NCBI RefSeq assembly: GCF_001854805.1
Contig: NZ_MBLO01000180.1
Coordinates: 1 to 64,000 of the forward strand
Direction of reading: 5' to 3'
DNA: 64,000 bases
From: Pseudofrankia coriaricola
GTDB taxonomy: Bacteria; Actinomycetota; Actinomycetes; Frankiales; Frankiaceae
The notes beneath the pieces were generated by a model. The model made no database searches, was not told the DNA's origin, and saw only the letters and a list, made by a program, of their open reading frames with translations. Within the stretch, counting starts at the first letter, position 1; each line of letters begins with the position of its first letter. The position numbers and the translations under genes were made by a program. Below, one piece after another: positions 25,847-46,059 of this stretch.

Positions 25847-26169
25847 CACATCGACCTTATCCAGGCGAACCACGCCCCAATGATCCGCCTCCCAGATGGC
25901 AAATGGCGACACCCCAACGTGAACTCAGTGAGACCACCGGATGCCCCAAGTTGTGGGCCGGGAGGGCGTACCCTGGGTGCGTCCGCGCCAAGGGGTCGGT
26001 CGGCCCGTGGTCGATGTTCCCAGGTTGGGCCGACGAAACCACGTAATCCGCCGCCAGATGCGCACCGGCTCGGGCACCGGCCGTGCCGACGCCGTCCACC
26101 GCGGTGTCCCGCCGACCGACCGTGGTGGACCGACGGACGCGAAATCGCCCGTTTCCATGGCACGTTCGG
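25847..26169. other. glgE upstream region
   Basis: About 320 bases between glgE and a repeat element. It should contain the glgE promoter. No known regulatory motif was recognised. GC content is somewhat lower around 25850-25935. Confidence 0.4.
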
Positions 26170-27168: not shown

Positions 27169-27372
27169 AACACGGCGCGCCGCCCGCGTTGGGAACTTCC
27201 GGCCCGCCATCATTCGTATGGCTCGTAGAAGTCCCGGCGGATGCCGCCCAGGCGGGCGAGCGTCCGGTCTGCCCACCTATGGGCATAGGCTGCCGATCAC
27301 ATTGGCAGCGAGCCGGGGCGAGGGTGCTCGGGGCGCCGAAGCCCCGTCCGCACGGACAGCGGGAGGAACACA

Positions 27373-27948
27373 GTGGGAGTCAGCCTCAGCAAGGGTGGCA
27401 ACGTCTCGTTGTCGAAGGAGGCGCCCGGTCTCACGAGCATGATCGTCGGCCTCGGCTGGGACGCTCGGACGACGACCGGGAGCGACTTCGACCTGGACGC
27501 GAGCGCGATCGCCTGCCGCGCCGACGGCCGGGTGCTCTCCGACCAGTACTTCATCTTCTTCAACAACCTGCGCAGCCCGGACGGCGCGATCGAGCACCAG
27601 GGCGACAACCTCACCGGTGAGGGTGAGGGTGACGACGAGCAGGTGAAGATAAACCTCGGCAGCCTGCCGTCGGAGATCGACAAGATCGTGTTCCCGGTGT
27701 CGATCTACGATGCCGAGGCGCGTCAGCAGAGCTTCGGCCAGGTGCGCAACGCCTTCATCCGGATCGTCAACGACCTCGGTGGCGCCGAGATCGCTCGGTA
27801 CGACCTGTCCGAGGACGCGTCGACCGAGACCGCCATGATCTTCGGTGAGGTCTACCGGCACGGCAGCGACTGGAAGTTCCGCGCGGTCGGCCAGGGCTAC
27901 GCGACCGGCCTGCGCGGCATCGCGCAGGACTACGGCGTCAACGTCTGA
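27373..27948 (+). CDS. terD: TerD-family calcium-binding stress protein
   Basis: A 191-residue TerD protein. TerD proteins are cytoplasmic, bind calcium and belong to tellurite/stress-response systems. Hallmarks are [45 protein letters not shown], and the calcium loop [16 protein letters not shown], then [21 protein letters not shown]. All canonical acidic residues are present, so calcium binding is expected. GTG 27373 follows GGGAGGAACACA. It is the first gene of the plus-strand Ter island, just right of repeat copy 3. Confidence 0.96.
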
Positions 27949-27983: not shown

Positions 27984-28389
27984 GCCGGGCAGCGGGTTCT
28001 GCCGGGTCGTGTTCGCCGACCCGGCGGAACCATCGGTCCGACGGGTGACGCCCGGTGCGAGGCGGCCGGCGGAGGGTGGCCGTTCAGGTCGGGACGGTGA
28101 TTGTTGGCATCGTGTCGCCCGCTTGTCACTTTTGTCCGTGGTGGTGCTGGCTACGATGCCGAGAGCCGCGCAAGTACCACGAGCGTGTCGAAGGTCGTTC
28201 GTCCGGTGGCCCAGATCACCGGAGCCACACGGCGCCGCCAGGCGCGGGTGGACGGCCGGGTGCTCGGGCCGGCGCGACAGACGGCGGCGCCGATGACGGC
28301 GGTGCGGCGGACTCCGGCGGACCGGAGCCGTAGTGCCAGGGCGCCCGCCGGTCACATCCCTCGACCGGTCCGCGGAGGTGCTGGTACTG
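27984..28389. other. Intergenic region before the TerC-like gene
   Basis: About 400 bases without a supported gene. TTGTCACTTTTGTCC and TACGAT near 28120-28160 are promoter-like but their spacing does not fit a standard -35/-10 pair. GGAGG at 28372-28376 is a candidate ribosome site for GTG 28390. Confidence 0.4.
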
Positions 28390-29529
28390 GTGCACATCTT
28401 GCGGATCTTTGGTTGGTCCTTCGCGATAACCGCCGTGGTCATCGCGGGCGCCGGCGTGCTAGGCGGCTGGCACGCCGCCGCGATCGTGACGATCCTGGCG
28501 GTCCTGGAGATCAGCCTGTCGTTCGACAACGCGGTGATCAACGCGACCATCCTGGGTCGGATGAGCCCGGTCTGGCAGCGGCTGTTCCTCACCGTGGGTG
28601 TGCTCATCGCCGTCTTCGGGATGCGGTTGATCTTCCCGATCGTTGTTGTCGCGCTTACCGCGCACCTTGGCCCGGTACAGGTCATCGACCTGGCGGTCAA
28701 CTCGGACAAGGTGAGCGACGGGTTCACCTATGCCGGCCATCTGCACAACGCCCACCCGGCGATCGCGGCCTTCGGCGGCATTTTCCTCTTCATGATCTTC
28801 CTGGACTTCATGTTCGACCCCGAGCGTGAGGTCCAGTGGCTGCGCTGGATCGAGGAGCCGCTGCGCAAGGCTGGCCAGCTCGACGTCATTCCCGTGGTGC
28901 TCGGGCTGGTCGCGCTGCTCGTGGTCGGCGAGGCGTTCTCCGACGGCCACACCGAGCAGGTCCTCGTCGCCGGGCTCGCGGGCCTCGCGACCTATCTGGG
29001 CGTGCGCGGTCTCGGCGAGTTCTTCGAGGCACAGGGGATCGGCGCCGACGAGGAGGACGGCGACGCCGAGGCGGAGCCGGGCGCCGTCGCCAAGCGCGGC
29101 GGCGTGGTCCAGGCGACGGGGAAGGCCGCGTTCTTCCTCTTCCTCTACCTCGAGGTCCTCGACGCGTCGTTCTCGTTCGACGGCGTCGTCGGCGCGTTCG
29201 CCATCTCGCAGGACATCTTCGTCATCGCCGCCGGCCTGGGCATCGGCGCGATGTACATCCGGTCGCTCACGGTCTACCTGGTGCGGCGGGGAACGCTGTC
29301 GGAGTACGTGTTCCTGGAGCACGGTGCTCACTACGCGATCGGCGCGCTCGCCATCATTCTCGCCGTGTCGATCGAGACCGAGGTTCCCGAGATCGTCACC
29401 GGGCTGATCGGCGTCGCCTTCATCGGTCTCGCCCTGCTGTCGTCGATGCGACACCGCGACGCGAACCGTGACGAGGGCGACGAGGCTGGCGAGCAGGAGG
29501 TGCCGGAACCAGTCGGCGCCAAGTCCTGA
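28390..29529 (+). CDS. TerC-like integral membrane protein (DUF475)
   Basis: A 379-residue polytopic membrane protein of the DUF475 branch of TerC. It has about eight or nine hydrophobic helices. The first half carries ILRIFGWSFAITAVVIAGAG and VLEISLSFDNAVINATIL, with the TerC Asp-Asn pair. The second half repeats it as YLEVLDASFSFDGVVGAFAI. An acidic loop (ADEEDGDAEAEPG) separates the halves, and the C-terminus is acidic and cytoplasmic. TerC proteins are implicated in metal-ion export or metal loading with TerD partners. GTG 28390 matches family N-termini (HxLRIFGWSF); earlier in-frame starts give a non-conserved extension. Confidence 0.92.
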   Translation: MHILRIFGWSFAITAVVIAGAGVLGGWHAAAIVTILAVLEISLSFDNAVINATILGRMSPVWQRLFLTVGVLIAVFGMRLIFPIVVVALTAHLGPVQVIDLAVNSDKVSDGFTYAGHLHNAHPAIAAFGGIFLFMIFLDFMFDPEREVQWLRWIEEPLRKAGQLDVIPVVLGLVALLVVGEAFSDGHTEQVLVAGLAGLATYLGVRGLGEFFEAQGIGADEEDGDAEAEPGAVAKRGGVVQATGKAAFFLFLYLEVLDASFSFDGVVGAFAISQDIFVIAAGLGIGAMYIRSLTVYLVRRGTLSEYVFLEHGAHYAIGALAIILAVSIETEVPEIVTGLIGVAFIGLALLSSMRHRDANRDEGDEAGEQEVPEPVGAKS

Positions 29530-29814
29530 CCGCGTGCTGACCGCGCGGCCGCGGGAGAAGACGGGCAACGGTCAGGCAAAACGCGGCCTTCACATCGGCC
29601 GCCCGTCCCGTGCCTGTTCACGGGCCGGGCGGCCAGCCGGGTGGAAGCCCCTCCCGGGGCAGGGCCGTGACGGCGATACTCCACCACTTCTACCGCCGTG
29701 CAGAATGGTTGGCGGGGTCGTCGGGCCGGTGACGGCCGGGAGGTCTGCCCCGGGGACGCCCCCGGTCTCCCCGATCCGACGGGCCGCCGCGGACGACACC
29801 GCAAAGGAGCGGAC

Positions 29815-30486
29815 ATGGCAATCGACTACTCGAAGCGTCCGAGTGACACGCCTGGCGCGGCGCCCGGCGTGTCCCTGAGCAAGGTCACCCTCACTAAGTC
29901 CGCCCCCTCCGTGTCGCTCTCCAAGCAGGGCGGCGGCGGGCGGCTGCACGTCAACCTCAACTGGAACACGGGCGCCGCCCCCCAGAAGGGCGGCTTCCTC
30001 AAGCGCGTGCTCGGCGCGAATGGCGGGATCGACCTCGACCTCGCCGCCATGTTCGAGCTGTCCAACGGACAGTCCGGCGTGGTCCAGGCCCTGGGCAACA
30101 GCTTCGGGTCCTTCGACGCCCCGCCGTTCGTCAACCTGGATGCCGACGACCGGACGGGGGCGGCGGTCGGCGGTGAGAATCTCTACGTCAACCTCGCGCA
30201 GGCGGCCCACATCCGCCGAATCCTGATCTTCGCGTTCATCTACGAGGGCGTCGCGTCCTTCGACCAGGCCGACGCGGTCGTGACGCTGACCCCGGCGCAG
30301 GGCGCGCCGATCGAGGTTCGCCTCGACGAGAAGGCCGGCGGCTCCCGGATGTGCGCGATCGCACTGCTCACGAACAACGGCGCCGGCGACTTCACGGTCA
30401 GCCGGGAGGTCCGCTACGTCGGCGGTCACCGTGATCTCGACAAGGCGTACAACTGGGGTCTGAACTGGACTCCGGGCCGCAAGTGA
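29815..30486 (+). CDS. TerA-like TerD-superfamily protein
   Basis: A 223-residue protein of the TerD superfamily, closer to the TerA branch. After a linker with PGVSLSKVTLTKSAPSVSLSK it has LHVNLNWNTG, IDLDLAAMFELSNG, VVQALGNSFGSF, and VNLDADDRTGAAVGGENLYV. These correspond to the TerA core with a modified calcium loop (DADDRTG instead of [12 protein letters not shown]). ATG 29815 follows AAAGGAG. Its stop overlaps the GrpE-like gene (GTGA), tying the Ter proteins to the chaperone pair in one transcript. Confidence 0.9.
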   Translation: MAIDYSKRPSDTPGAAPGVSLSKVTLTKSAPSVSLSKQGGGGRLHVNLNWNTGAAPQKGGFLKRVLGANGGIDLDLAAMFELSNGQSGVVQALGNSFGSFDAPPFVNLDADDRTGAAVGGENLYVNLAQAAHIRRILIFAFIYEGVASFDQADAVVTLTPAQGAPIEVRLDEKAGGSRMCAIALLTNNGAGDFTVSREVRYVGGHRDLDKAYNWGLNWTPGRK

Positions 30487-31403
30487 CCGAGCCGCACTCC
30501 CGTCGCCGCCGAGAGCGGTCCGGCCGCTGGTTTCCCGGGCCGGACCCTCTCGGGCCGTCCGGACAGGGCCAGGGCGCTGGCCCGGACGACGGCGACGCGG
30601 CGGGGCTCCCCGGAATGGGGGGCCCCGGCGGTGCCCCGACGACGCTGCCGATCATGTCGGTGTCCGACGGGGCGCGCGGCAAGCCCTCGGCCGCGAACGC
30701 CGTCGACATCTCCCCGATCTCGAACCCGCGAGGTATGTCGGGCAGGCCCGGTGGGGCGCTCGACGGCCGGCCGTCCTTCGACGGTGGCCCTTACGACAGC
30801 TACGACCCGGTCGACGAACCAACGAACGGTGGCCCGGACTGGGGCGCGCCGGCCCAGCGGCCCCTCACGCCCCCGGGCGGCGAGCGCGTGGCCGGCGGAA
30901 TGCCGGCCGGGCTCGCTGTGGGCCCGCCGACGCCGCCGGGCGGGGCCGCCGGTGACCTGGTCGAGCAGCTGGCCACACTCGCCCGCCGGGTGGACGAGCT
31001 CGCGCGGCTGCGCCGGCACGACGTCGAGATGGTCGACCGGCTGCACGAGGAGAACACCCGGCTGCGCCAGGGCGAGCTGACGGAGGCGATGGCGCCTCTG
31101 CTGCGCGGCCTGATCAGGCTGCACGACCAGATGTCCAGCCTCGGCGCGGACGATCCGCAGAGCGTCGCCGGGATCCTGCGCAAGCAGCTTCTGCAGGTAC
31201 TCGATATCGCCGCCGACGTGCGGCCATACATCGCCGTGCCAGGCAGCCAGTTCGATCCGACGCGCCACCTCGCGCTGCGCGGCATCGGGACCGATGAGCC
31301 CGCGCGCGACCGCACGGTCGCCCGCGGCGTCCGGCCCGGCTTCGTGCGTGGCACCTCGACCGTGCTGCGCCCCGCCGAGGCCGAGGTCTACCGCCACCGG
31401 TAA
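30483..31403 (+). CDS. Divergent GrpE-like nucleotide exchange factor
   Basis: A 306-residue protein. Residues 1-155 are Gly/Pro-rich, probably disordered. Residues about 158-205 form the long helix (DLVEQLATLARRVDELARL; VDRLHEENTRLRQGELTEA), followed by GrpE-like MAPLLRGLIRLHDQMSSL. The C-terminal beta domain has FDPTRHLALRGIGTDEPARD and VRPGFVRGTSTVLRPAEAEV, closely following the GrpE pattern (FDPxxHEA, V-x-PGY, LRPAxV). It is therefore predicted to release ADP from the Hsp70 encoded next. The long disordered N-terminus is unusual. It overlaps the TerA-like gene by GTGA. Confidence 0.85.
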   Translation: MTEPHSRRRRERSGRWFPGPDPLGPSGQGQGAGPDDGDAAGLPGMGGPGGAPTTLPIMSVSDGARGKPSAANAVDISPISNPRGMSGRPGGALDGRPSFDGGPYDSYDPVDEPTNGGPDWGAPAQRPLTPPGGERVAGGMPAGLAVGPPTPPGGAAGDLVEQLATLARRVDELARLRRHDVEMVDRLHEENTRLRQGELTEAMAPLLRGLIRLHDQMSSLGADDPQSVAGILRKQLLQVLDIAADVRPYIAVPGSQFDPTRHLALRGIGTDEPARDRTVARGVRPGFVRGTSTVLRPAEAEVYRHR

Positions 31404-31686: not shown

Positions 31687-33378
<1,692 letters not shown>

Positions 33379-34017
33379 CTGTATTGCTGGTTCGCTGTAT
33401 TTCTGGTTCGCTCCGTCCGGGCGGCGCGCTCCGGCCCCTTACTCGCTTCGCTCCCAAGGGACCTCCGCGCGCCGTCCTCCTCCGCTCACGGGCGCTCCGG
33501 CGACCTCGCTGCGGCCCGCCTACGTCGCTTCGCTCGTAGGAGGGCCTCCGCGAGGTGCGCCTCCGCGCCCAGCGCGGTTGCTTGCCGCTGTACGTCACGA
33601 GACCACAAGACGCGTGCGCGGGGTCCACGTCGCTTCGCTCGTGGGCCGGGCCTCCGCGGAGGTGCGCCTCCGCGCCCAGCACGGTCACCCGCCGCTGAAC
33701 GTCACCTATCCGCGGCAGGCCCATCCGTAGGCCACGTCGCTTCGCTCGTGGAGACGCGAAGACCGCACGAGCGAAGCGACGTACCCAGACGAGCGCTGTG
33801 GCTTCGGGTTGGCGACGTACAGCGGCACGCAACCGAGCTGGCGCGAAGGCGCACCTCGCGGAGGCCCGGCCCCGGAGCGAAGCGAACGGGGCCGGGCCTC
33901 CGCGAGGTCGCCGGAGCGCCCGTGAGCGGAGGAGGACACGGCCCGGAGGTAGCCCGCGAGCCGCCAGGCGAGCGGGCTGCCGGAGGGCCGTGCCCGCACG
34001 GAGCGAACCATGTCAAC
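33379..34017. repeat. Mosaic inverted-repeat element, copy 4
   Basis: This begins at the base after the Hsp70 stop codon, with CTGTATTGCTGGTTCGCTGT then CTGTATTTCTGGTTCGCTCC, the same left end as copy 1. Hairpins around the shared loop are 33436-33460 (CCCTT/AAGGG), 33519-33540 (CCTACG/CGTAGG), 33625-33644 and 33732-33751 (CCACG/CGTGG), and 33869-33893 (GGCCCCG/CGGGGCC). The right arm ends GGAGCGAACCA with AACCTTCCCGCCCAACC beyond it. The remaining 270 bases to the next gene hold nothing recognisable apart from the GAGGTGAGG ribosome site. Confidence 0.85.
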
Positions 34018-34284
34018 CTTCCCGCCCAACCCGGCCCGACTTCGGCCCCGACGCCTGGAAACCCGTTGTATCGGCGCCTCAGGGCGGTCCGTAACCTGGG
34101 TGGCGTATGGATCCGGCCGCCGGGGGCGCCGGTCTGTTGCCGTCGAGTGACGTCGCCCGGTTGACGGTGGCGGCGCGATCGCGAGGCTCGGTATCCGGGC
34201 GGCTGCCCGTTCGGCTCTGACGGTGGCGGATGTACGGGGCGGCTGGCGCCCGCTCGCTCGGCACGGCGTTACATGAGGTGAGGC

Positions 34285-37200
34285 GTGAGCGCGGCGTTTG
34301 ATGGCAGCGGATACCGCCAGCGGGTGCTGGCGGTGCTGCGCGCGCGCTCTCCGCTGCGGCTCGACGACCCGTTCTTCGTCGCCGATCTGGATCCCGAGGG
34401 CGGGGACACCGACGCCGAGGTGCAGGCGAGGCTCGCTCGGGTGCTCGCGTTCCTGCAGCGGGAGCGCAGCTCGGCGAAGTACGCGACGCTCGCCGCGGAG
34501 CTCGTCCGCCGCCGGGCGGAGTGGGAGGCGCCGCTGCGTGACGCCGAGGCGCGGGAGCGGACCCGCCAGCGGGTCGTCGAGGCTCGCCGGGACGGCGACA
34601 CCGAGCGGCTCGCCAAGGTCGACGGCTACCTGGCCACCGTGCGCGAGCGGTTCGGCGGCATCCCGATCTCCCGGGTCGAGGGCCTGCGCCGCCTCGCCGC
34701 CCAGGCCGGGGTGGTCGGCGAGCGCTTCGACACACGGCTAGCCAGGGAACGGCTCATCGACGACGCGGCCGGGGTGGGCGTCGCGCCGCTGCCGGCCGAC
34801 GCGCGCGGCCAGATCCGGGAGCGGCTCGACGAGCTGCGGGCCCTGCGCCGCGGCGACCACGCCTCGACCGCCTCGCTGTGGGCCTTCCTCGGAGTGGGGC
34901 CCGACGGGCCGCCGGCCCGGCTCGTGGCCGCGTACGAGGCGGTCGCGGCGGTGAACGCCCGCCGGCCGCACGACCGGGAGAAGACGGTGACCGCGGACCT
35001 GCTCGCGCTGGTCCGCACCCGCCTGCTGGAGGGCGACCCGGCCGCCTACACCGCCGGCCTGCTCGCCGACGCGGCCGACGAGCTGCGTGCCGCGGTGGAG
35101 GAGCACGTCCTCCTGGACGGCGAGATCACCGCGGTCGCCTTCGAAGGCCTGATGCGCCGGACGCTGGGCGCCGGCCGTGGCCTGTCGGCGGCCCAGGTCA
35201 GATCGGTCGTGCTGGGCCTGGCCCGCGACCTGGGCGTCCCGGTGAGCACCGGCGCGACGGTCGACTTCGTCGTCTGCCCTGGCTGCGGGCGCCCGGAACC
35301 GGTCGGCGAGGTCCGGGTCTGCCGGTACTGCGACACCGATCTCTACATCGTCTGCCCCACCTGCGGGCGGCTGACCGAGGCGGCGGCCGCCGTCTGCCGG
35401 CAGTGCGGGCAGAGCGTCCGCCAGTCCAGGGACGCGACGGAGGCGCTCACCGCGATCCGCCGCGCGCTCGACGACGGCAGGCCGGCCGAGGCGGTCGAGC
35501 TGATCGGCCGGGCGCGGCCGGCGCTCGCCGCCGTGGGCGCCCCCGCCATCGCCGCCGGTGACGAGCTCGCCGCGCGCGTGGCGGCCGCCCTCGCCGCCGC
35601 CGACGCGGGGTGGCGGGCGCTCGCGGACGACCGTGGCGCGGGCCGGGCCGAGGCCGCGCTGGAGCGGGCGCGCTGGCTGGTCGCGCAGGCGGCCGACGTG
35701 CCCGGCCCGGACGGCCGAGGCGCCGCCGAGGTTCTCGAAGAGCTGACCATGGCCCAGGCGATGATCCGGCGGCGGGTGGACGCGGCGCTCGCGTTGCCGC
35801 CGGCGGCGCGGGAGGCCGCGCTCGTCGCCGTGCTGGCCAGCGCCTCGGACAGCCCGGAGGCCCTCGCGGCGCTGGCCGCTCTCCCGCTCGCGCCGGTGGT
35901 CGACCTGGCCGCGATGCCGGCCGGGGGCGCCTCCTCGGGTGCCGCCGGGGCGGTGCTGCTGCGCTGGCGGGCCGCCGACACCGCGACGCCGTTGTCGTTC
36001 CGGGTGGACCGGGTGGTCGCCGGGACGCTCGGCGCCCCGCCGGCCCGCTTCGCCCTCGGTACCACCACGGCCATGGAGCTGACCGATGCCGGCGCGCCCG
36101 CGTGGACGCCGGTGTATTACGAGGTGACGGCGGTCTCCGGCAGCCGCCACTCGCCGGTCGCGCGGACCGAGTCGCTGGTCCTCAGCCGGGACGTCGAGGG
36201 GCTCCGGGCCCAGCAGACCGCGGACGGTGTCCGGCTGACCTGGCGCCTGGAGGGCCCGGTCCAGCTGGTGACCGTCGAGCGGGCGGTCGAGGCGGTCGAG
36301 GTGCTCGAACCGATGGAGGCGCTCGACGACGGGAGCGCCGGCCCGCCCACCGGGGGGCTCGCGGTGGGCGACGGGGAGCCTCGGGACGTGGACCGTTCGG
36401 TCCGGCATACCCGGGTCAGCGGCGGGGTGCTGACCGATCCGGACGTGCAACCGGGTGTCACCTACCGTTACCGGCTCTCGGTGGAGTATGTCGAGGGCGA
36501 CGGCTCGCCCGCCCGCACGCCGGGCGTGGAGACCTCGGTCGCGGTGGCGCTGCGGCCGCGGCCGGTCCTCGACCTGTCCGTCGCGTTCGCGGGTGGCGAG
36601 ACCATGCTGCGCTGGACGGCGCTTCCCGGTTCGGACGTGCGGATCTACGCCACGTCGGGCGTGTTGCCGGACACGGCGGCGCCGGCAGCGGGCCGGTACC
36701 CGACGCAGCCATCCGCCCCGGCTGGGCCGTTCGGACCAGAGAACACCGACCTGCCGCTGGGCGCCGCCACGGGGCCGGCCCGCCTCGTCGGCGCGAGCCG
36801 GCGCGGCCGGCTGCTGGACTCGGCCGCGGTCGGCCCGGTGATCTACACCCCGGTCAGCGTTCTCGGCGGCAGGGGTGTCGTCGGCCGGCCGGTCCAGCAC
36901 GTGGCCCCCGGCGGGGTCACGGAGCTGCGCGTCGAGGACCGGGGCGACGAGCTGGTGCTGTTCTTCCGTCTCGCGGCTGGGCTGACCGAGGCCAGGGTGC
37001 TCTGGCGGCGTGACCGGATGCCGACCGGCCCGGACGATCCCGTGGCCTCGGCCGCGACGGTGACCATCGCGGGTCTCGCCCTGCGCGGTGGTGGCTGGCG
37101 GCTCGCCGCGCCGCGCGATGGCTGGCCGTACTACGTGTCCTGCTTCCCGGTGTTCCGGGTGAACGGCCAGCCGCGCGCCGCGTCGGCCGGCGCCGAGCTG

Positions 37201-38796
37201 CTCGCCCGGGCGCCCGCCGTGCCGCTTCCGGCCGCCGGAAGCGGCACCGGGCCGATGGCCCTGCCGGGAGCTCCGGCCGGGCCGGAGGCGTCCTATCTCA
37301 CGCCACTGCCGCCCGGCCCGCCGACCGGCGCGTTGCCTGTCCCCACCGGGGCCATGCCGGTGCCGTCTCCCGCCAGCGCCGCGCTGCTCCTCCCGTCGGC
37401 GACGTCGGCGATGCCCATGGCACCGGCGCGCGGTCACGCGCAGCCACCTGGTGCCGTGCCGCTGCCCGGCCCGGCGCCGGCCGCCGGGCCGGGCACCGCC
37501 GGGATGCCGGTCGGTCTGGGCAGGGCGCCCGCGCCCGCGGGGCCGCCCGTGTCCTCTCCGGGCGCGGCGCCGCCGGTGCCGCCACCCGCCGTGATGCCGC
37601 ATGTGCCGCCCCCGGCGGCCGTTCCGCCCGTACCGTCGCCTGCCGGGATGCCATCGGCGGGGATGCCAGGAGCCCCACCGCCCGGAGCGGTGCCGCCCAT
37701 GCCGCCCTTGGGCCAGGGGCAGGCCTCGGTGCCGCTTCTCCCCTCGCCCCCCGCCCCGGTGGCCGGGCCGGGGGTGCCGCCGGGCCCGCGGGGCCAGGCC
37801 GCACCCGCCGGGCCGTTGCCGCCGATGGTGAACCCGCCGACGTCGGGCTCTGGACTGCCTGTCATGCCCAGGCCAGGGGCGCCGGCCCAGCCCGGCCAGG
37901 AGCCGCCCCCCGCGCCCATGCCGTCCACTCCGCCCGCGCCGTCGCACCAGCCCGCGCCGTCGCACCAGCCCGCGCCGTCGCACCAGCCAGCGCCGCCGTC
38001 GCCCGTGTCCGAGGCGGCCGCGTGGCCAGGCCCGGCGGGTTGGGCGAGCCCGCCGGCCCCGCCTCAGGGCCCAGCGGGACTGGCCGCGCTGCCGCCGTGG
38101 ATCCCCGCCACTCCGACGGGTGGCACGGCTGGCTGGGATGGGCACCTTCCGGCGCTCGGCGCGCCCGCCTGGCCCGCGCCCGCGAACGGCCCGGCGGCGG
38201 GCCCGCGGCCTGGCTGGACGTTGCCGGCGATGCAGGGCGGCCTGTTCGCCCCGGCCGGTCCGGGCGGCCAGTTCGATGACGGCGCCGGGACGCCGGAGCA
38301 CGTCGGGTACCAGGACCAGCTGACCCTCTCGCCACCGGACGAGTTCACCGGCCACGCCACCGTCCCGCCGCCGGCGGGCAGTCCCGGCGGCAGGTTCGAC
38401 GACGGTGCCGGAGTGACCGCGGCGTCCGACGAGGACGCGGACGACGACCTGGCCGACGAGCCGCCGGAGGGCGGCTCGGGGGAGCCCTGGGTGGCCTACT
38501 CGGTGGCGCGCGCCGGCTGGCGGCGGCGCGTCCTGCGGGTCCGGGTCCGCAGCGGGGGCACCGTGCCCGAGCTGGTGCTCGTCGCCCGTCCCGGGACACT
38601 GCCGCCGGCGGAGCTCGCCGAGGGGCAGGCGCTCGCCCGGCTCGCGCCGTCCGCGCAGCGCGTCACCCGGACCATGGAGGTCCGTCTCGACGGCGCCCTG
38701 CTGCCCTGGGGGATCAGGGTGCTGCCCGTGGCCGACGGCGCGGACGAGCCGGTCACGGTCGAGCACCCGTCGGATGACGCACTCGTAGTTCGCTAG
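34285..38796 (+). CDS. Giant zinc-ribbon / FN3-like / Pro-rich protein of the Ter-Hsp70 island
   Basis: A 1503-residue protein with no signal peptide or clear membrane helix. Residues 1-325 are alpha-helical and Arg/Glu/Ala-rich (RERSSAKYATLAAELVRRR). Residues 331-374 hold four Cys-x2-Cys pairs (CPGC, CRYC, CPTC, CRQC), two tandem zinc ribbons. Residues about 380-540 are helical. About 545-790 contain fibronectin-III-like units (AVLLRWRAADTATPLSFRV; VRLTWRLEGPVQLVTVERA; PGVTYRYRLSVEYVEGD), then more beta-rich sequence to about 965. About 1000-1340 is Pro/Ala-rich, with HQPAPS repeats. The C-terminal 130 residues form a beta-rich domain. GTG 34285 follows GAGGTGAGG. It lies downstream of the GrpE-Hsp70 pair, which suggests a client adaptor or J-protein substitute; this is inference, and no HPD motif is seen. 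The biochemical function is unknown. Confidence 0.88.
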   Translation: MSAAFDGSGYRQRVLAVLRARSPLRLDDPFFVADLDPEGGDTDAEVQARLARVLAFLQRERSSAKYATLAAELVRRRAEWEAPLRDAEARERTRQRVVEARRDGDTERLAKVDGYLATVRERFGGIPISRVEGLRRLAAQAGVVGERFDTRLARERLIDDAAGVGVAPLPADARGQIRERLDELRALRRGDHASTASLWAFLGVGPDGPPARLVAAYEAVAAVNARRPHDREKTVTADLLALVRTRLLEGDPAAYTAGLLADAADELRAAVEEHVLLDGEITAVAFEGLMRRTLGAGRGLSAAQVRSVVLGLARDLGVPVSTGATVDFVVCPGCGRPEPVGEVRVCRYCDTDLYIVCPTCGRLTEAAAAVCRQCGQSVRQSRDATEALTAIRRALDDGRPAEAVELIGRARPALAAVGAPAIAAGDELAARVAAALAAADAGWRALADDRGAGRAEAALERARWLVAQAADVPGPDGRGAAEVLEELTMAQAMIRRRVDAALALPPAAREAALVAVLASASDSPEALAALAALPLAPVVDLAAMPAGGASSGAAGAVLLRWRAADTATPLSFRVDRVVAGTLGAPPARFALGTTTAMELTDAGAPAWTPVYYEVTAVSGSRHSPVARTESLVLSRDVEGLRAQQTADGVRLTWRLEGPVQLVTVERAVEAVEVLEPMEALDDGSAGPPTGGLAVGDGEPRDVDRSVRHTRVSGGVLTDPDVQPGVTYRYRLSVEYVEGDGSPARTPGVETSVAVALRPRPVLDLSVAFAGGETMLRWTALPGSDVRIYATSGVLPDTAAPAAGRYPTQPSAPAGPFGPENTDLPLGAATGPARLVGASRRGRLLDSAAVGPVIYTPVSVLGGRGVVGRPVQHVAPGGVTELRVEDRGDELVLFFRLAAGLTEARVLWRRDRMPTGPDDPVASAATVTIAGLALRGGGWRLAAPRDGWPYYVSCFPVFRVNGQPRAASAGAELLARAPAVPLPAAGSGTGPMALPGAPAGPEASYLTPLPPGPPTGALPVPTGAMPVPSPASAALLLPSATSAMPMAPARGHAQPPGAVPLPGPAPAAGPGTAGMPVGLGRAPAPAGPPVSSPGAAPPVPPPAVMPHVPPPAAVPPVPSPAGMPSAGMPGAPPPGAVPPMPPLGQGQASVPLLPSPPAPVAGPGVPPGPRGQAAPAGPLPPMVNPPTSGSGLPVMPRPGAPAQPGQEPPPAPMPSTPPAPSHQPAPSHQPAPSHQPAPPSPVSEAAAWPGPAGWASPPAPPQGPAGLAALPPWIPATPTGGTAGWDGHLPALGAPAWPAPANGPAAGPRPGWTLPAMQGGLFAPAGPGGQFDDGAGTPEHVGYQDQLTLSPPDEFTGHATVPPPAGSPGGRFDDGAGVTAASDEDADDDLADEPPEGGSGEPWVAYSVARAGWRRRVLRVRVRSGGTVPELVLVARPGTLPPAELAEGQALARLAPSAQRVTRTMEVRLDGALLPWGIRVLPVADGADEPVTVEHPSDDALVVR
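37933..37994 (+). repeat. 18-base tandem repeat encoding SHQPAP units
   Basis: Three exact copies of CCCGCGCCGTCGCACCAG and a partial fourth lie inside the Pro-rich linker of the giant protein, giving SHQPAPSHQPAPSHQPAP. The copies are identical at third positions, so the expansion is recent and length variation between strains is likely. Confidence 0.85.
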
Positions 38797-39277
38797 ATGG
38801 GACTGGGGCGCGAGGGGGTCGCGAGGGTGACGCGCGGCCAGGGGCCGAGGGCGGGGCACTGACGTGGCCCAGATGGTTGACCTGACGTAGATCTTCCGTA
38901 GCTTCTTGGTTGGTTTGCGGGGGCGGTTGACGCCCTTTTGCCGGAATCGCGGCGCACATGCGGACAGCCGTCCCGAAATGTCCGGAAGTGTTTTCCCATG
39001 GGCGCTGCCGCGGGTGCCGGCACGGCGATTACCATGCTTGTGATCAAGTATTGCCGTGTATCCGAGGGTGCGCCGGTATTCGGCACGTCGTCCAGGGCCA
39101 CGGTGGCGGGCGCCGTTTGGGAGGGCCGTTACGGCCGCTCCGGAGGGGACGGGGCCACGCGCCGCCGCTCGTGACGTGCGCCGACACCTCCGGGTGCTCC
39201 ACACCCACGGCGGAAGGACGAGCCGGCGCCACGCGGTCGCCGCCTCGCCCGCCACGACCGAAAGGCAGCGCGTTCGC
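38797..39277. other. Intergenic region before the GH26-like gene
   Basis: About 480 bases, distinctly lower in GC at 38870-39070 (GTAGATCTTCCGTAGCTTCT; ATTACCATGCTTGTGATCAA). It probably contains a promoter for the secreted protein gene. I looked for a c-di-AMP riboswitch core, which often precedes cell-wall genes in actinobacteria, and did not find one. Short frames here are not convincing. Confidence 0.45.
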
Positions 39278-40786
39278 ATGGCCTTGGCAGACAACGGTCG
39301 CCTGTCCCCTCCGGCGAGCCGTCCGGTTCAGCGAGCCGTCCATTCCATGCCCGCCGTAGCGGCGGGCGGACCCACCTGGCGCCGTTCCCGCCGGCGCCAC
39401 TCCCGCCGGCGTCAGTTCGCCGCGCTGGCGAGCGTCTTCGCCGTCGCGCTGCTGACACTCACGGTGCCCGGCGTGACGGCCGCCTCAGCGGCCACCACAC
39501 CGCCGGCCACCACACCGCCGGCCACCACGCCACCACTCGACCAGAGCGGGCAGACCAGCGGGGTGGCCGCCGTGCCGGCCCTGGCGATCGTGCTGTTCGA
39601 CAGCGACATCGTGCTCGTCGGCGGCCGCGGCTTCCTCCCCGGCCAGGACGTGAAGATCGAGGCGGCCACCGAGCAGCTCGGCGGCTCGGCCTCCATGAAG
39701 GCAGGCGGCGAGGGTCGTTTCCTGCTCGGCTTCCAGCTGCCGGCCAGCTTCGCCGGGAAGGTGTCGGTGACCGCCACCCAGGGCGAGCGGAAGGCCTCCG
39801 GCGAGCTGGCCGTGGGTGGCCCGGCGCCGGCGCCGACGATCACGCCGACCGTGCCCGCGGGCGCGCCTGAGACGACGAGCAAGCTGGACACCGCCGGCAA
39901 GAACTCCGGGCTTCCGTGGATGTCCGGCGTCCATCCGGCGAACGAGATGCAGCCCTACCTGGACTTCGGCACGTGGCGGGGCCGGCAGGTCGACCTTGCC
40001 CACGTGTTCACGGTCCGCGAGCAGGGCTGGGACCCGATCGTCGAGCCGACCTGGCCGGTGGAGGACTTCGCCAGCTTCCCCGGCAAGCTGGTAATCAGCC
40101 AGCCGCTGTACCCGGAAGGGGTCGGCAACAACGCCGACTGCGCGAACGGCGCGTACAACGACCAGTGGAAGCGGTTCGGCACCTTCCTGGTGAACCACAA
40201 CCGCGCCGACACGATCGTGCGGATCGGCTGGGAGTTCAACGGCTGGTTCATGTACTGGCACGTCGACGCCGACCCCACCAACTGGGTGAAGTGCTTCCAG
40301 AACGTCGCGACCGCGATCCGGTCCACCGACCCGGACATAAAGATCGACTGGACCTTCAACGCCCACAACTCGCCGGTCCCCGACGGGGGCTCGCCCTGGC
40401 CCGCCTACCCGGGTGACGAGTACGTCGACTACATCGGGATCGACCCGTACGACATGTTCCCGCCGTCACCCGACGAGGCCACCTTCGACCGGCAGTGCAA
40501 CGACCCGAACGGCCTCTGCTACGCCGCCAAGATGGCCCGGGAGCACGGCAAGAAGCTCTCCGTCGGTGAGTGGGGCGTCACGTCCTGCTCCGGTGACCCT
40601 GGTGGCGACAACCCGCTCTACATCCGGAAGATGTGGGAGACGTTCGTCGCCAACAAGGACGTCATGGGCTACGAGTCGTACTACGACGACCCGATGCCGA
40701 ACAACGTCTGTTCCACGATCTTGAATGGCGGGGTGAACCCCAACTCGGCCGCCGAGTACAAGAAGCTCTGGGACGGCGGGGTCTAA
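39278..40786 (+). CDS. Secreted GH26-like (beta-mannanase superfamily) glycoside hydrolase
   Basis: A 502-residue secreted protein. An Arg-rich n-region (RRSRRRHSRRRQ) is followed by a hydrophobic core, FAALASVFAVALLTLTVPGV, and AASA cleavage; the twin Arg may allow Tat export. A TPPAT repeat linker and a small beta domain (about 95-190) precede a catalytic barrel. The two GH26-type acids are visible: Glu319 in RIGWEFNGWF and Glu431 in SVGEWGVTS. Substrate is unknown; relatives act on beta-mannan or other beta-glycans. Start ATG 39278 has GAAAGG upstream; ATG 39347 is also possible. The gene sits between the giant protein and the Ter biosynthetic operon and is followed by a strong terminator. 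Confidence 0.85.
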   Translation: MALADNGRLSPPASRPVQRAVHSMPAVAAGGPTWRRSRRRHSRRRQFAALASVFAVALLTLTVPGVTAASAATTPPATTPPATTPPLDQSGQTSGVAAVPALAIVLFDSDIVLVGGRGFLPGQDVKIEAATEQLGGSASMKAGGEGRFLLGFQLPASFAGKVSVTATQGERKASGELAVGGPAPAPTITPTVPAGAPETTSKLDTAGKNSGLPWMSGVHPANEMQPYLDFGTWRGRQVDLAHVFTVREQGWDPIVEPTWPVEDFASFPGKLVISQPLYPEGVGNNADCANGAYNDQWKRFGTFLVNHNRADTIVRIGWEFNGWFMYWHVDADPTNWVKCFQNVATAIRSTDPDIKIDWTFNAHNSPVPDGGSPWPAYPGDEYVDYIGIDPYDMFPPSPDEATFDRQCNDPNGLCYAAKMAREHGKKLSVGEWGVTSCSGDPGGDNPLYIRKMWETFVANKDVMGYESYYDDPMPNNVCSTILNGGVNPNSAAEYKKLWDGGV

Positions 40787-40839: not shown

Positions 40840-41148
40840 AATGGCGAGGCCGCGCCGTCGCGGAAAGTAGCCATCCGATGATCGTCGCGTTGTGGCGGAT
40901 GGCGACCGGGTGGATGCTGATCGGATCCGTAACCGGTTGAACCGGCTTGGTATGGAACGGCGGCATTACGGACAAATGTCGGAAAGGCGTCAGTGGGACG
41001 TTTCCCAGCGTCCCGCCCCTTCTGGAGGGTACGGTCCGACGCGTCGGACGTTCTCGCAGGTCCGGCGGCGCGTGAGCGCACCCCGGCGGGAATTCGCCGA
41101 GCCGCGCGCCCAGGGGCGAGGCCCGTCGAGCTAGAAGGAGCCGCTGCG
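40840..41148. other. Promoter region of the Ter biosynthetic operon
   Basis: About 310 bases between a terminator and the CitE-like gene. No coding content is supported. It must hold the operon promoter; a lower-GC part lies at 40910-40985 (GGTTGAACCGGCTTGGTATG). AGAAGGAG at 41133-41140 is the ribosome site for GTG 41149. Confidence 0.5.
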
Positions 41149-42342
41149 GTGCGACACTTCGCCTTCCTCGACTCGGCGGCCAGTGACGCGTTGTTCCACC
41201 TGCCGCCGGTCGAGATCACCCGCGACGACGACCGGCGGATGGTCGCGACGGCACTCGGCGCGACGCTGTACGCGCCGGGGACCCGGCCGCGGCTCGCGGA
41301 CGACGTGCGCCGTCAGTCGGCCGCCGGCGTCGCGTCGATGGTGCTGTGCCTCGAGGACGCGGTCGCCGACCACGAGGTGGCGGCGGCGCAGGCGAACGTG
41401 GTGCGCGCCCTCAACCAGCTGGGCGACGAGCCGCCACGCGTCGGCGACGACTCCGGCATGCTGTTCGTGCGGGTGCGCGCGGCCGAGCAGATCCCCGCCC
41501 TCATCGCCGGGCTCTCGGCCGCGGCGGCGGACGTGCTCACCGGCTTTGTGCTGCCGAAGTTCGTCGAGGACAGCGGCGAGCCGGCGCTCGAGGCGGTGCT
41601 GCGGGCCAGCGACACGATCGGCCGCCCCCTGTGGGCCATGCCCGTGCTGGAAAGCCCGGAGGTCATCTACCGGGAGACTCGGCTGGACACGCTGCGCGGG
41701 GTGCGCCGTCTCGTCGACAAGCACGCCGACCATGTGCTGGCGGTGCGGCTGGGCGCCACCGACCTGTCCGGGCTCTACGGGCTGCGCCGCGACCGCGATC
41801 TGACCATCTACGACATCGCCGTGGTGCGGGACTGCATCGCCGACATCGTCAACGTCTGCGCCCGCGGCGGTGACCACGTCGTCACCGGGCCGGTCTGGGA
41901 GTACTTCGCTCAGCCCGAGCGACTGTTCCTCAGCACGCTGCGGGTCACCCCGTTCGCCACGGCGGATCTCGCGAACCCGGACGTCCAGGGCCCCGCGCTG
42001 CGCCAGGACCTCGTCTCCGCCGACCTCGACCGGTTGATCAAGGAAGTCGTGCTGGACAAGGCGAACGGCCTGATCGGCAAGACCGTCATCCATCCCAGCC
42101 ACGTCGCCGCCGTCCATGCCCTCTACGTCGTGACCCACGAGGAGTACGAGGACGCGCAGACGGTGCTCGCCGGCGAGTCGGGTGGCGTCCAGCCCAGCCG
42201 CTACGCGAACAAGATGAACGAGCTGCGCCCGCACCGGATCTGGGCGCAGACCGTGACCAGGCGCGCCGCCGCCTTCGGGGTGCTCCGCGAGGGCCACACC
42301 TTCGTCGACGTGCTCGCGGCCAGCCAGGTGGTGGCCGCTTGA
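41149..42342 (+). CDS. CitE-like HpcH/HpaI-family lyase of the Ter biosynthetic module
   Basis: A 397-residue protein of the HpcH/HpaI (citrate-lyase beta-like) aldolase family. Family motifs are ATLYAPGTRPRLADD, MVLCLEDAVADHEV (metal-ligand Glu69/Asp70 region), FVRVRAAEQIPAL, TGFVLPKF, and the C-terminal GLIGKTVIHPSHVAAV. CitE-like enzymes cleave or form C-C bonds in CoA or phospho-sugar substrates. Comparative genomics links this subgroup with TerD-type operons and a predicted nucleoside-like metabolite. GTG 41149 has AGAAGGAG eight bases upstream. It opens a four-gene operon in which every junction overlaps by four bases. Confidence 0.92.
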   Translation: MRHFAFLDSAASDALFHLPPVEITRDDDRRMVATALGATLYAPGTRPRLADDVRRQSAAGVASMVLCLEDAVADHEVAAAQANVVRALNQLGDEPPRVGDDSGMLFVRVRAAEQIPALIAGLSAAAADVLTGFVLPKFVEDSGEPALEAVLRASDTIGRPLWAMPVLESPEVIYRETRLDTLRGVRRLVDKHADHVLAVRLGATDLSGLYGLRRDRDLTIYDIAVVRDCIADIVNVCARGGDHVVTGPVWEYFAQPERLFLSTLRVTPFATADLANPDVQGPALRQDLVSADLDRLIKEVVLDKANGLIGKTVIHPSHVAAVHALYVVTHEEYEDAQTVLAGESGGVQPSRYANKMNELRPHRIWAQTVTRRAAAFGVLREGHTFVDVLAASQVVAA

Positions 42343-43991
42343 AACCGCCGGCACCCGGCGGCTCGGCGACTGGCGGCTCGGCACCCGCGGCCGCGGGTGC
42401 CGGCCGCGCTGTGGTGGGCATCTCGGCCCCAGGCGGTTCCACGGCCGGCCGATTCGCGGATGGTGGACCAGTGTTGGACAGCTCCCCGCTCGCCGGCCGG
42501 GCGGACCGGTCTCCCGCGAGCCCGTGGCCGCCGGCCGGGGACGGCGGGGACGACGACGGCTGGCTGTGGGTGGCACTGGGACTCGCGGCCGAGGTGACCG
42601 AGGACGTCACCGGCGCCGGGCTGGGCGGCATTGTGGGCCTGGCGCTGCGGCGCAACCCGCGCCGTGCCCACCTGCTGGTCAGCCGGGTGCTTGGCAAGCA
42701 CCTGCCGGTCCGGCCCGAGGTCGCGCTCGGCGCGGCCGCCGCGCTCGCCGCCAGGGCGCGCGACGTCTCCGCTGTCGGCCGCGCCGGCGGCGCGCCGTTC
42801 GTCCTCGGCTACTGCGAGACGGCGACCGCCCTCGGGCACGCGGTGGCCGACGGCTTCGCCGACGCCGACTACCTGCACACCACCCGCCGCGCGGTCGCCG
42901 GGATGCGCTCCGAGCTGGAGCTCGCCGAGACGCACTCACACGCCGTGCACCACTGGCTGCTGCCCGCCGATCCGCGGCTGCTGACCGACCCCCGCCCGCT
43001 GCTGCTCGTCGACGACGAGCTGTCCACCGGCAACACGGCGCTCGGCACGATCCGGGCGCTGCACGCGCTCGCCCCGCGCCCCGCCTACACGGTGGCGACG
43101 CTGCTGGACGCGCGGCCGGCGGCCTCGCGGGCGCGCTTCGACGAGGTGGCGGCCGAGCTGGGCGTGCCCGTCGACGTCGTCTCGCTGGTGTCCGCGACCG
43201 TCGCGGTGCCGCCCGACGTGGCCGACCGTGCCCGGGCGCTGCGCGAACGCCACGGCGCGGCGGCGGGCGGCGCCGCCCGCGCGAACGACGGCGTGGGTGG
43301 CGCACCCGACGGCTCGGCGATGACCGGGCTGGGCCCGCCGAGGTCGGTGACGTGGCTGCGCCCGCCGTGGCCGGCCGAGCTGCCCGATGGGGGGCGGCAC
43401 GGCTGGGCGCCGCGCCACCGCGGGCTGCTCGACGAGACGGTGGGGAACGTGGCCGCCGCCATCGCGGACCGGCTGGTCGAGCCGGGCGGGCGGACGCTCG
43501 TGCTGGGGACGGAGGAGCTCATGTACACCCCGATGCGGCTTGCCGCGGCGCTCGGCCGGGCAACCGGCGGCGACGTGCGCTACCAGTCGACCACCCGGTC
43601 GCCGGTGCACCCGCTCGACGTGCCCGGCTACGCGATCCGGTGCGCGCTGGAGTTCCCGGCGCCGGACGACCCCGGCCGTGTCAGCCAGGTCTACAACGTC
43701 GCGCCAGGCCGCTACGACGACATCGTTGTGGTCGTCGACGACGGCACGGACGCCACGGCGCCGGCCGCCGGCGACGGCCCGCCGCCCGAAGCGGCTGGCA
43801 GGCTGGCCCATGGCCGGCCGCGGAGGGCATCGAAGGCGGCGTGGCCCGAAGCGGCTGGCAGGCTGGCCCATGGCCAGCCGCGGAGGGCGTCGACGGCGGC
43901 ATGGCCCGCGGGCCTGGTGGAGGTGCTGCGCCACTGCGCGCCGGTCACCGTCGTCACGTTGCCGTCGTTCGTCCCGGCGGGCGCCCGGTGA
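42339..43991 (+). CDS. Phosphoribosyltransferase with TRSP domain
   Basis: A 550-residue protein. The first 70 residues are Gly/Ala/Pro-rich. Residues about 85-320 form a PRTase fold with the PRPP-binding loop LLLVDDELSTGNTALGTI (about 222-239). Residues about 350-550 match the TRSP partner domain found in Ter-associated PRTases (WAPRHRGLLDETVGNVAAAI; TLVLGTEELMYTPMRLAAAL; RYQSTTRSPVHPLD). TTG 42339 gives a TTGA overlap with the CitE-like stop; an internal start nearer residue 45-70 cannot be excluded. A 20-residue duplication interrupts the TRSP domain. It is predicted to join a base-like moiety to PRPP. Confidence 0.9.
   Translation: MKPPAPGGSATGGSAPAAAGAGRAVVGISAPGGSTAGRFADGGPVLDSSPLAGRADRSPASPWPPAGDGGDDDGWLWVALGLAAEVTEDVTGAGLGGIVGLALRRNPRRAHLLVSRVLGKHLPVRPEVALGAAAALAARARDVSAVGRAGGAPFVLGYCETATALGHAVADGFADADYLHTTRRAVAGMRSELELAETHSHAVHHWLLPADPRLLTDPRPLLLVDDELSTGNTALGTIRALHALAPRPAYTVATLLDARPAASRARFDEVAAELGVPVDVVSLVSATVAVPPDVADRARALRERHGAAAGGAARANDGVGGAPDGSAMTGLGPPRSVTWLRPPWPAELPDGGRHGWAPRHRGLLDETVGNVAAAIADRLVEPGGRTLVLGTEELMYTPMRLAAALGRATGGDVRYQSTTRSPVHPLDVPGYAIRCALEFPAPDDPGRVSQVYNVAPGRYDDIVVVVDDGTDATAPAAGDGPPPEAAGRLAHGRPRRASKAAWPEAAGRLAHGQPRRASTAAWPAGLVEVLRHCAPVTVVTLPSFVPAGAR
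43785..43908 (+). repeat. 60-base in-frame tandem duplication in the PRTase gene
   Basis: Two 60-base copies (43785-43844 and 43845-43904) differ at only a few positions and encode PEAAGRLAHGRPRRASKAAW and PEAAGRLAHGQPRRASTAAW. They lie between the strand VVVVDDGTD and the helix LVEVLRHCAP of the TRSP domain. The near identity points to a recent slip or recombination event. Confidence 0.9.
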
Positions 43992-45217
43992 CCGCGACCA
44001 CCGCGGCGACACCGGCCGCCGGCCGGCCCGCGTCCGGCCCGGTCCCACCGGACGCGCCGCCCGGCGCGGGCCTGCCTGGCACGATCGGCTCCGGCTCCTA
44101 CGACCCGGCGGACGTCACGTTCCTGCTCAAGGACCTCTCCGCCGTCGCCCTCGAGCGGTCCACCGAGGACCGCGAGGAGGACATGCAGCGCGGCCGGCAC
44201 TACTCCGAGGACCTGCCGGTCGAGTACCAGCCGGACGACGGCTACCTGGAGCTGTACCACCAGGCCCTGGAGCGCTCGGCGACCAGAGTGGCGCTGGCCG
44301 CGGGCGTCGTCTCCGAGCTGGTGCGCGTCGCCAAGCCCGCGCCGGTGCTGGTGTCGATCGCGCGGGCCGGCACGCCAGTCGGCATCCTGATGCGCCGCTG
44401 GTACGCCTTCCGCTACGGCCTCGACGTGCCGCACTACGCGATCTCGGTGATCAAGGACAGGGGTGTCGACCTCAACGCGGTCCGCCACCTCACCGCCCGC
44501 CACGACCCGGCCGCGCTGCAGTTCGTCGACGGCTGGACGGGCAAGGGCGTGATGACCCGGGTGCTCACCGAGACGGTCGTCCCGCTCGGTCTCGACGACA
44601 CCCTGGCGGTGCTCGCGGACCCCGCCCGGTGCGTGCCGCTGTACGGCACCCGCGACGACTTCCTCATCCCGAGCGCCTGCCTGAACTCCACGGTCAGCGG
44701 GCTCGTCAGCCGGACGGTGCTGAACGCCGAGCACATCGGCCCGGGCGACTTCCACGGCGCGAAGTACTACCGCGACCTGGAGCCGCACGACCTGTCCCGC
44801 CACTTCGTCGAGACGGTCGTCGCCCGGTTCGCCGACGTCGCCGACGAGGTGGCCGAGACCTGGCCCCGGCTGTGGGCCGGCGACCGGACCCCGACCTGGG
44901 AGGGCTGGGCCGCCGTCGAGCGGATCGCCGAGCGGTACGACATCCCCGACGTGGCGATGGTGAAGCCGGGCGTCGGCGAGGCGACCCGGGTGCTGCTGCG
45001 CCGGGTGCCGTGGCGGGTGCTGATCGCCCCGGGCGCGGCCGGCGAGCTCGCGCACGTGCTCGCCCTGGCCGAGGCGCGCGGCGTGCCGGTCGAGGAGATG
45101 CCCGGCCTGCCGTTCTCGTGCGTCGGCCTCGTCCGCCCGGTGCGCGCCGACGGGGAGGCCCCGGAGTTCCACACGGCGCAGTCCCGGTACCGCCCGGTCA
45201 CCGAAGCCGGGCAGTGA
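43988..45217 (+). CDS. StiP-family protein (cysteine-protease/PRTase-like with PELOTA domain)
   Basis: A 409-residue StiP-family protein, named for its predicted cysteine-protease-like domain and found in Ter operons. Hallmarks are GSYDPADVTFLLKDL, the START segment RHYSEDLPVEYQPDDGYLEL, PVLVSIARAGTPVGILMRRW, HYAISVIKDRGVDLNAVRHL, FVDGWTGKGVMTRVL and YGTRDDFLIPSACLNSTVSG. The C-terminal RNA-binding-type PELOTA domain is VAMVKPGVGEATRVLLRRV (about 321-395). The GTG start overlaps the PRTase stop (GTGA). The true substrate is unknown; family models place it in synthesis or transfer of a nucleoside-like compound. Confidence 0.92.
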   Translation: MTATTAATPAAGRPASGPVPPDAPPGAGLPGTIGSGSYDPADVTFLLKDLSAVALERSTEDREEDMQRGRHYSEDLPVEYQPDDGYLELYHQALERSATRVALAAGVVSELVRVAKPAPVLVSIARAGTPVGILMRRWYAFRYGLDVPHYAISVIKDRGVDLNAVRHLTARHDPAALQFVDGWTGKGVMTRVLTETVVPLGLDDTLAVLADPARCVPLYGTRDDFLIPSACLNSTVSGLVSRTVLNAEHIGPGDFHGAKYYRDLEPHDLSRHFVETVVARFADVADEVAETWPRLWAGDRTPTWEGWAAVERIAERYDIPDVAMVKPGVGEATRVLLRRVPWRVLIAPGAAGELAHVLALAEARGVPVEEMPGLPFSCVGLVRPVRADGEAPEFHTAQSRYRPVTEAGQ

Positions 45218-46059
45218 CGCTCCCGGAGGCCGCGCCGGGCGCGCGGTGGCTGGTCGCGTGCGACCTCGACCAGACGCTGATCTTCTCGCGGCGCTCGTTC
45301 CGGCTGCCCGAGGGCGCCGCCGAGCCGCCGCTGGTCACCGTCGAGCACCTCGACGGCGAGCCGGCGGCGTTCATGACCGAGACGGCGTTCGCCAGCGTCG
45401 CCGAGCTCGCCGGCCGCGCCGTGCTGGTGCCGGTGACGACCCGCACGCTCGGCCAGTACCGCCGTGTCGACCTCGGGGTCGCGCCGGCCTACGCCGTCGC
45501 GGCGAACGGCGGCCATCTGCTCGTCGACGGCGAGCCCGACCCGGCCTGGGCCGCCACCGTCGCCGAGCGGCTGCGCGCCGGGGCGCCGCTCGCCGCCATG
45601 CTCGACGTCGCCGCGCGGCTCGCCACCGGCGGCTGGTGCCGGCTGACCCGGGTCGCCGACGACGTGTTCGTCTACCTGGTCGCCTACGACCGTGACGGCA
45701 TCCCGGACCTCGCCGAGGTGACCGCCGAGGTCGAGGCCGCCGGCTGGACCGTCTCCGTGCAGGGCCGCAAGGTCTACCTCGTCCCGGCCGCGCTCACCAA
45801 GCAGGCCGCGCTCGCGGAGGTGGCCCGCCGCGCCGGCGCCGACCGGGTCGCCGCCGCCGGCGACTCGCTGCTCGACGCCCCGATGCTGCTCGCGGCCGAC
45901 GCCGCCGTCCGCCCCGCCCACGGCGAGCTCCACGACCGCGCCTGGGCCGCCCCCAACCTGCGCGTCACGGCGGCCCCCGGCCTCCTCGCCGGCGAGGAGC
46001 TCCTCGCCCACCTCAACGGCCTTGTCTGCGCCCCCGCGCTGCCCGTTTCACAGGCATGA
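45214..46059 (+). CDS. HAD-family phosphatase of the Ter module
   Basis: A 281-residue HAD hydrolase. Motif I is CDLDQT (nucleophile Asp17, acid/base Asp19), motif II VPVTTRT, motif III the Lys in TKQAALAEVARR, and motif IV GDSLLDAPML (about 216-225). The cap is of the sucrose-phosphatase/Cof type. It would dephosphorylate the phosphoribosyl product of the preceding PRTase. The GTG start overlaps the StiP stop by GTGA. It closes the operon; I see no ATP-grasp gene, which often accompanies this set elsewhere. Confidence 0.9.
   Translation: MTLPEAAPGARWLVACDLDQTLIFSRRSFRLPEGAAEPPLVTVEHLDGEPAAFMTETAFASVAELAGRAVLVPVTTRTLGQYRRVDLGVAPAYAVAANGGHLLVDGEPDPAWAATVAERLRAGAPLAAMLDVAARLATGGWCRLTRVADDVFVYLVAYDRDGIPDLAEVTAEVEAAGWTVSVQGRKVYLVPAALTKQAALAEVARRAGADRVAAAGDSLLDAPMLLAADAAVRPAHGELHDRAWAAPNLRVTAAPGLLAGEELLAHLNGLVCAPALPVSQA

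Follow-up and report, generated by a model that had tools for sequence, protein, structure and literature searches.

The window analysed in this study is a 64,000-nucleotide stretch of the Pseudofrankia coriaricola genome (~11.2 Mb), in which a run of forward-strand genes resembles a Ter stress-response operon. The run begins with TerD (27373..27948; Pfam PF02342, E = 4e-84), a DUF475/TerC-family membrane protein (28333..29529; PF04332, E = 3e-119, and PF03741) and a TerD-like protein of the TerA type (29698..30486), which has no Pfam match of its own and is conserved in Ter-linked loci, its homologue in locus L078 matching TerD weakly. These are followed by a GrpE-like nucleotide exchange factor (30483..31403; Pfam GrpE E = 2.4e-4, slightly below the cut-off, at a position conserved in Ter-linked loci), a 563-aa lidless Hsp70 of a noncanonical class (31687..33378; Pfam HSP70 E = 3e-96, alignment and tree) and the gene under study, which encodes a 1503-aa Hsp70-partner protein (34285..38796) homologous to the FNIII component of GAP1 systems. 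Further downstream lie a secreted-looking GH26-like protein (39056..40786; PF02156, E = 1.5e-3), a CitE-like C-C bond lyase of the Ter biosynthetic module (40993..42342; PF15617, E = 5e-122), a PRTase_2/TRSP protein (42339..43991; PF15609 and PF12500), a StiP cysteine protease with a PELOTA domain (43988..45217; PF11202, E = 4e-98, and PF15608) and a HAD-like hydrolase (45214..46059), the last named from a weak Pfam HAD match and its position. With TerD, TerC and the genes of the biosynthetic module all identified by Pfam, and with Ter genes on both sides, the locus is best described as a Ter operon into which a GrpE-Hsp70-partner trio has been inserted. The GH26-like glycosidase is a conserved neighbour; in many Frankiaceae it separates the partner gene from the Ter biosynthetic genes, and in some it is missing. 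The intergenic regions 25857-27300 and 33379-34284 carry GC-rich palindromic direct and inverted repeats with a period of ~105 nt and a shared CGCTTCGCTCG core, and this repeat type is thus also present between the Hsp70 and partner genes. Neither CIRCE nor HAIR heat-shock operators were found above chance, and searches with PADLOC and for phages gave no match.

The partner gene starts with GTG and has 1503 codons with a coding GC3 of 0.92, supporting the open reading frame as first described. An antisense ORF of 1518 aa (34738-39294) fails the same GC3 filter and was ruled out as a real gene. From the N- to the C-terminus, the protein consists of helices, a double zinc ribbon, TPR-like helices, four FN3 domains, a Pro-rich arm and an Ig/FN3-like sandwich. 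An AlphaFold2 model built from a 43-sequence alignment (mean pLDDT 82.7) placed helices at residues 7-316 and again at 378-532, a ribbon of low confidence between them and, at ~535-978, four FN3 domains. The helical N-terminal region contains a first module (residues 28-123; 34366..34653) that is kept in all family groups, and a profile of the N-terminus had no match among PDB sequences. The TPR-like segment (residues 378-532; 35416..35880) is also reflected in weak Pfam TPR matches in relatives. The four FN3 domains (residues 535-978; 35887..37218) were recovered by Foldseek (E = 3.9e-12 to fibronectin 3t1w) and VIA (Z ~13) with a 992-residue model of the partner, the result list being filled by FN3 matches, and Pfam fn3 was detected in 9 of 45 relatives.

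Behind the FN3 domains lies the Pro-rich arm, defined by its composition (about residues 981-1340; 37225..38304), whose length differs between relatives and which is almost missing in L070. The helical N-terminus, the FN3-like repeats, a Pro-rich arm of 340 residues and the lack of a secretion signal, all proposed in a first-pass annotation of this DNA, were borne out, the arm having a proline fraction of 0.2-0.45 at ~981-1320 and the N-terminus having no strong hydrophobic stretch. The same annotation had called the C-terminus a new-looking beta domain. The last 119 residues are indeed modelled confidently as a beta sandwich (pLDDT 84), but the top PDB matches are generic Ig-like and FN3-like domains, so that a new fold was ruled out; this sandwich (residues 1402-1503; 38488..38793) is shared with the partner protein of the GAP1 system. 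Across relatives, the partner varies from ~700 to 1520 aa, and the N-terminal region is its most conserved part.

The double zinc ribbon (residues 331-374; 35275..35406) is made of four Cys-x2-Cys pairs within 44 residues (331/334, 346/349, 357/360 and 371/374), as noted at first sight, and residues 331-375 match Pfam DZR with an E-value of 1.4e-5, slightly below the cut-off of that model. The spacing of the pairs is fixed or nearly so in each of the 25 Ter-linked relatives whose length covers the ribbon. The ribbon is confined to the Ter-linked clade and one outlier, being missing in the 32 group B relatives of sufficient length and in 18 of 18 GAP1-type relatives. The suggestion that it holds clients in the manner of DnaJ was not sustained, because it contains no CxxCxGxG repeats of the kind found in the zinc domain of class A DnaJ, and because its absence from these 32 and 18 relatives speaks against a core client-holding element. 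A divergent relative of 1077 aa (L180:7928-11161), whose Hsp70 lies on the opposite strand, has a ribbon in the corresponding position, and its N-terminus can be aligned to the partner family across 264 columns.

No J-protein gene was found in the window, in agreement with the first-pass annotation; at least five clear J-proteins are encoded elsewhere in the genome. The earlier statement that no J-protein is nearby is qualified by the partner itself, which contains a degenerate J-like segment lacking HPD. This segment lies in the second helical module (residues 198-278; 34876..35118), with a helix order in the AlphaFold2 model that is compatible with a J fold. In hhalign comparisons with genuine J domains, residues 198-226 matched helices I-II (68-89%, 24 columns) and scored 34, shuffles reaching 20 at most; the match is limited to helix I and a portion of helix II. 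In addition, hmmsearch with a J-domain HMM picked LLGVSPDATRQEI...RRPD in a group B member, gave an E-value of 4e-4 for L069 and let 14 of 78 relatives pass the Viterbi filter. Pfam DnaJ gave no match, none of the 78 relatives has an HPD motif within the first 350 residues, the J-likeness of the L180 protein by itself is not significant, and module 2 was not seen in GAP1-linked relatives. At the place of the HPD loop, the partner has an RRPHDREK loop (residues 226-233; 34960..34983).

The adjacent Hsp70 is lidless, as first proposed, the C-terminal helical lid being missing in the alignment. No member of its class has the lid, and in all of them an insert takes the place of the VLLLD interdomain linker (32770..32964 in the window); VLLLD is present in 0 of 68 class members versus 6 of 6 DnaKs. 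The position of DnaK Arg167, occupied here by Asp157 (codon 32155..32157), is Asp in 62, Gly in 5 and Asn in 1 of the 68 class members, whereas it is Arg in 6/6 DnaKs; Asp or Asn was also found there in 11 additional Hsp70s. The ATPase motifs DLGTT, VPAYF, DLGGGTFD and LVGG are intact in all class members. In the canonical system, D35 of DnaJ (the HPD Asp) contacts R167 of DnaK and H33 (the HPD His) contacts the linker (PMC8215388), and stimulation of the R167D variant of DnaK is not effective (PMC7289447). Both halves of the HPD/Arg167 contact have been lost at this locus. The two sides also vary together, an RPHD-type loop in group A and an RPD loop in group B of Frankiaceae occurring with Asp at residue 167 and a PPG-like loop in Mycobacteriales with Gly; this covariation amounts to one evolutionary event and is therefore suggestive only.

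Relatives were collected with a profile of the N-terminal 330 residues of the partner. The family was found in nearly all sampled Frankiaceae genomes and in three genomes of family f4, which is taken, together with the Nocardia and Tsukamurella loci, as Mycobacteriales, and a phylum-wide profile search yielded nothing beyond Frankiaceae and Mycobacteriales except weak local matches. Most of these Frankiaceae genomes carry two copies, a Ter-linked copy with the ribbon (group A) and a copy without it (group B). The genome studied here has a second Hsp70-partner pair (L063:8268-12533, G000:C210) between a histidyl-tRNA-synthetase-like gene and dapB, with no Ter genes. L078, a group B locus from family f4, also adjoins Ter genes and GrpE. 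At locus L083 (G111), the partner coding sequence is broken up into three reading frames, by either a frameshift or an assembly error. The gene immediately upstream, in the same orientation, encodes an Hsp70 at 26/26 loci of group A and 34/34 of group B, and so at all 60 sampled loci of Frankiaceae and Mycobacteriales. In the reverse search, with the insert and substrate-binding region of the Hsp70 as the query, ten further loci were fetched, and an FNIII partner adjoins the class Hsp70 in all ten, with a GTPase and GAP1 behind it wherever the contig extends far enough. At L188, one of the ten, there is a second Hsp70 slightly farther upstream. Moreover, groups A, B and GAP1 each form one clade in both the Hsp70 and the partner trees; over 42 loci, 34 of 34 supported Hsp70 splits were recovered in the partner tree and 31 of 31 in the reverse direction, with no strong conflict.

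A profile built from the TPR-like segment plus FN3 domain 1 of the partner revealed a wider family. GrpE-Hsp70-FNIII-DO-GTPase2-GAP1 operons were detected in family f17 and in the genus of the window itself, and they fit theme 2 of the GAP1-N2/DO-GTPase systems described by Kaur et al. in 2020, which combines Hsp70, GrpE and FNIII, in some cases with DnaJ or TPR (PMC7159879). An Hsp70 without its peptide-binding domain is also mentioned there (PMC7159879). The partner matches the FNIII protein of the GAP1 operons over 590 columns (hhalign E = 1e-39), and the C-terminal domains of the two match with an E-value of 2e-8; by this homology the partner is a member of the FNIII-component family found in actinobacterial Hsp70-GrpE-FNIII trios, the trio of the window being located in a Ter stress operon. 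Because neither DO-GTPase nor GAP1 was found in the window by tblastn or among the neighbours by Pfam, the locus is a family member by homology and not a complete GAP1-N2 system. In Frankiaceae genomes, a Ser/Thr kinase is fused to partner-related FN3 domains (L172:8402-10531 and L174:8496-10718), and several GAP1 loci hold an FNIII protein with no Hsp70 seen nearby. Homologues away from Hsp70 genes, whose regular occurrence the first-pass annotation took to speak against its proposal, are absent from the family proper and do occur among more distant relatives of the FN3 part.

Taken together, the linkage at 60/60 loci and in 10/10 further loci and the congruent trees give good support, as genome evidence, to the earlier idea of a dedicated partner of the lidless Hsp70. 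Our main reading, with a probability of about 0.6, is that the partner serves this noncanonical Hsp70 as a dedicated co-chaperone or scaffold that does not depend on HPD. Since both proteins appear to be without the standard J-protein contact, the pair may work without a classical J-protein. The N-terminal helical region of the partner, including the degenerate J-like module, most likely docks on the Hsp70, where the matching site would be the altered one (Arg167 changed to Asp, Gly or Asn, and the VLLLD linker replaced). Physical binding of this kind could allow the partner to control the Hsp70 ATPase. Together with the TPR-like helices and the FN3 domains, the C-terminal sandwich would make up a long arm presenting clients or other parts of the system (putatively TerD/TerC in this operon and GTPase/GAP1 at other loci), and the nucleotide state would be reset by GrpE. 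A more specific version is a tentative possibility, namely a charge-swapped, HPD-free Hsp70 drive in which the basic RPD/RPHD loop would meet the Hsp70 Asp at the place of Arg167, the module having been recruited to GTPase conflict systems and Ter operons.

Joint inheritance and operon linkage can also stem from shared expression instead of contact, and other roles of the partner have to be weighed. It might be a passive scaffold, an FN3/TPR protein that assembles Ter or GTPase components, with the Hsp70 as just another member and no J-like regulation. The Pro-rich arm and the FN3 arrays fit such a role, the J-like match is partial, and FN3 relatives without Hsp70 exist in some GAP1 loci and in the kinase fusions; nevertheless, the Hsp70 linkage is complete in groups A and B and the HPD and R167 halves are both altered, so that this explanation appears rather unlikely. 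We consider it improbable that the partner is simply a dedicated client, a long and partly disordered protein folded or held by the Hsp70 without acting on it. A long multidomain protein does adjoin the chaperone at every sampled locus, but its size (~700-1520 aa) and arm vary widely, conservation being highest in the N-terminal region, and the Hsp70 class itself is changed at the J-site. Finally, canonical J-proteins encoded elsewhere in the genome could act in trans on the Hsp70, leaving the partner with an unrelated role in the Ter response. The genome offers at least five of them, yet the two features on which J action depends in DnaK, residue 167 and the linker (PMC8215388, PMC7289447), are changed in every class member, which makes action in trans very improbable.

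The GrpE-Hsp70-FNIII trio was already partly described in 2020 (PMC7159879). As far as a limited literature search shows, the new elements are the Ter setting, the absence of Arg167 and the linker from every sampled class member, the HPD-less J-like loop and the congruent trees. Work on Hsp70s to date treats the HPD/Arg167 contact as essential, and an Hsp70 class that has neither the Arg nor the linker, beside a partner with an HPD-less J-like loop, offers a direct test of a possible alternative way to drive an Hsp70. Ter operons would also be tied to a dedicated chaperone machine.

Compared with known systems, the locus resembles other Ter stress-response operons in having TerD, TerC, CitE-like, PRTase and StiP genes, in an order conserved in Frankiaceae, and differs from them in the inserted trio, of which no earlier account was found in the limited literature search. 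It shares with the GAP1-N2 systems an FNIII component that is homologous from the N-terminal helices via the FN3 repeats to the C-terminal domain and is adjacent to GrpE and a lidless Hsp70, whereas the window has Ter genes instead of DO-GTPase/GAP1 and its partner adds the zinc ribbon and the long Pro-rich arm. Like J-domain proteins, the partner sits beside Hsp70 and GrpE and shows a degenerate helix I/II match with RPD/RPHD at the HPD position, but it lacks HPD, a Pfam DnaJ match and the CxxCxGxG zinc domain, and its Hsp70 lacks Arg167. That Hsp70 keeps the ATPase motifs of canonical DnaK without the lid, the VLLLD linker or Arg167. It resembles HscC-type proteins in being a short Hsp70 (550-580 aa) linked to metal or stress resistance; HscC, however, retains a J-partner and has no GrpE contacts (PMC8215388), whereas the present Hsp70 is linked to GrpE and altered at the J-site.
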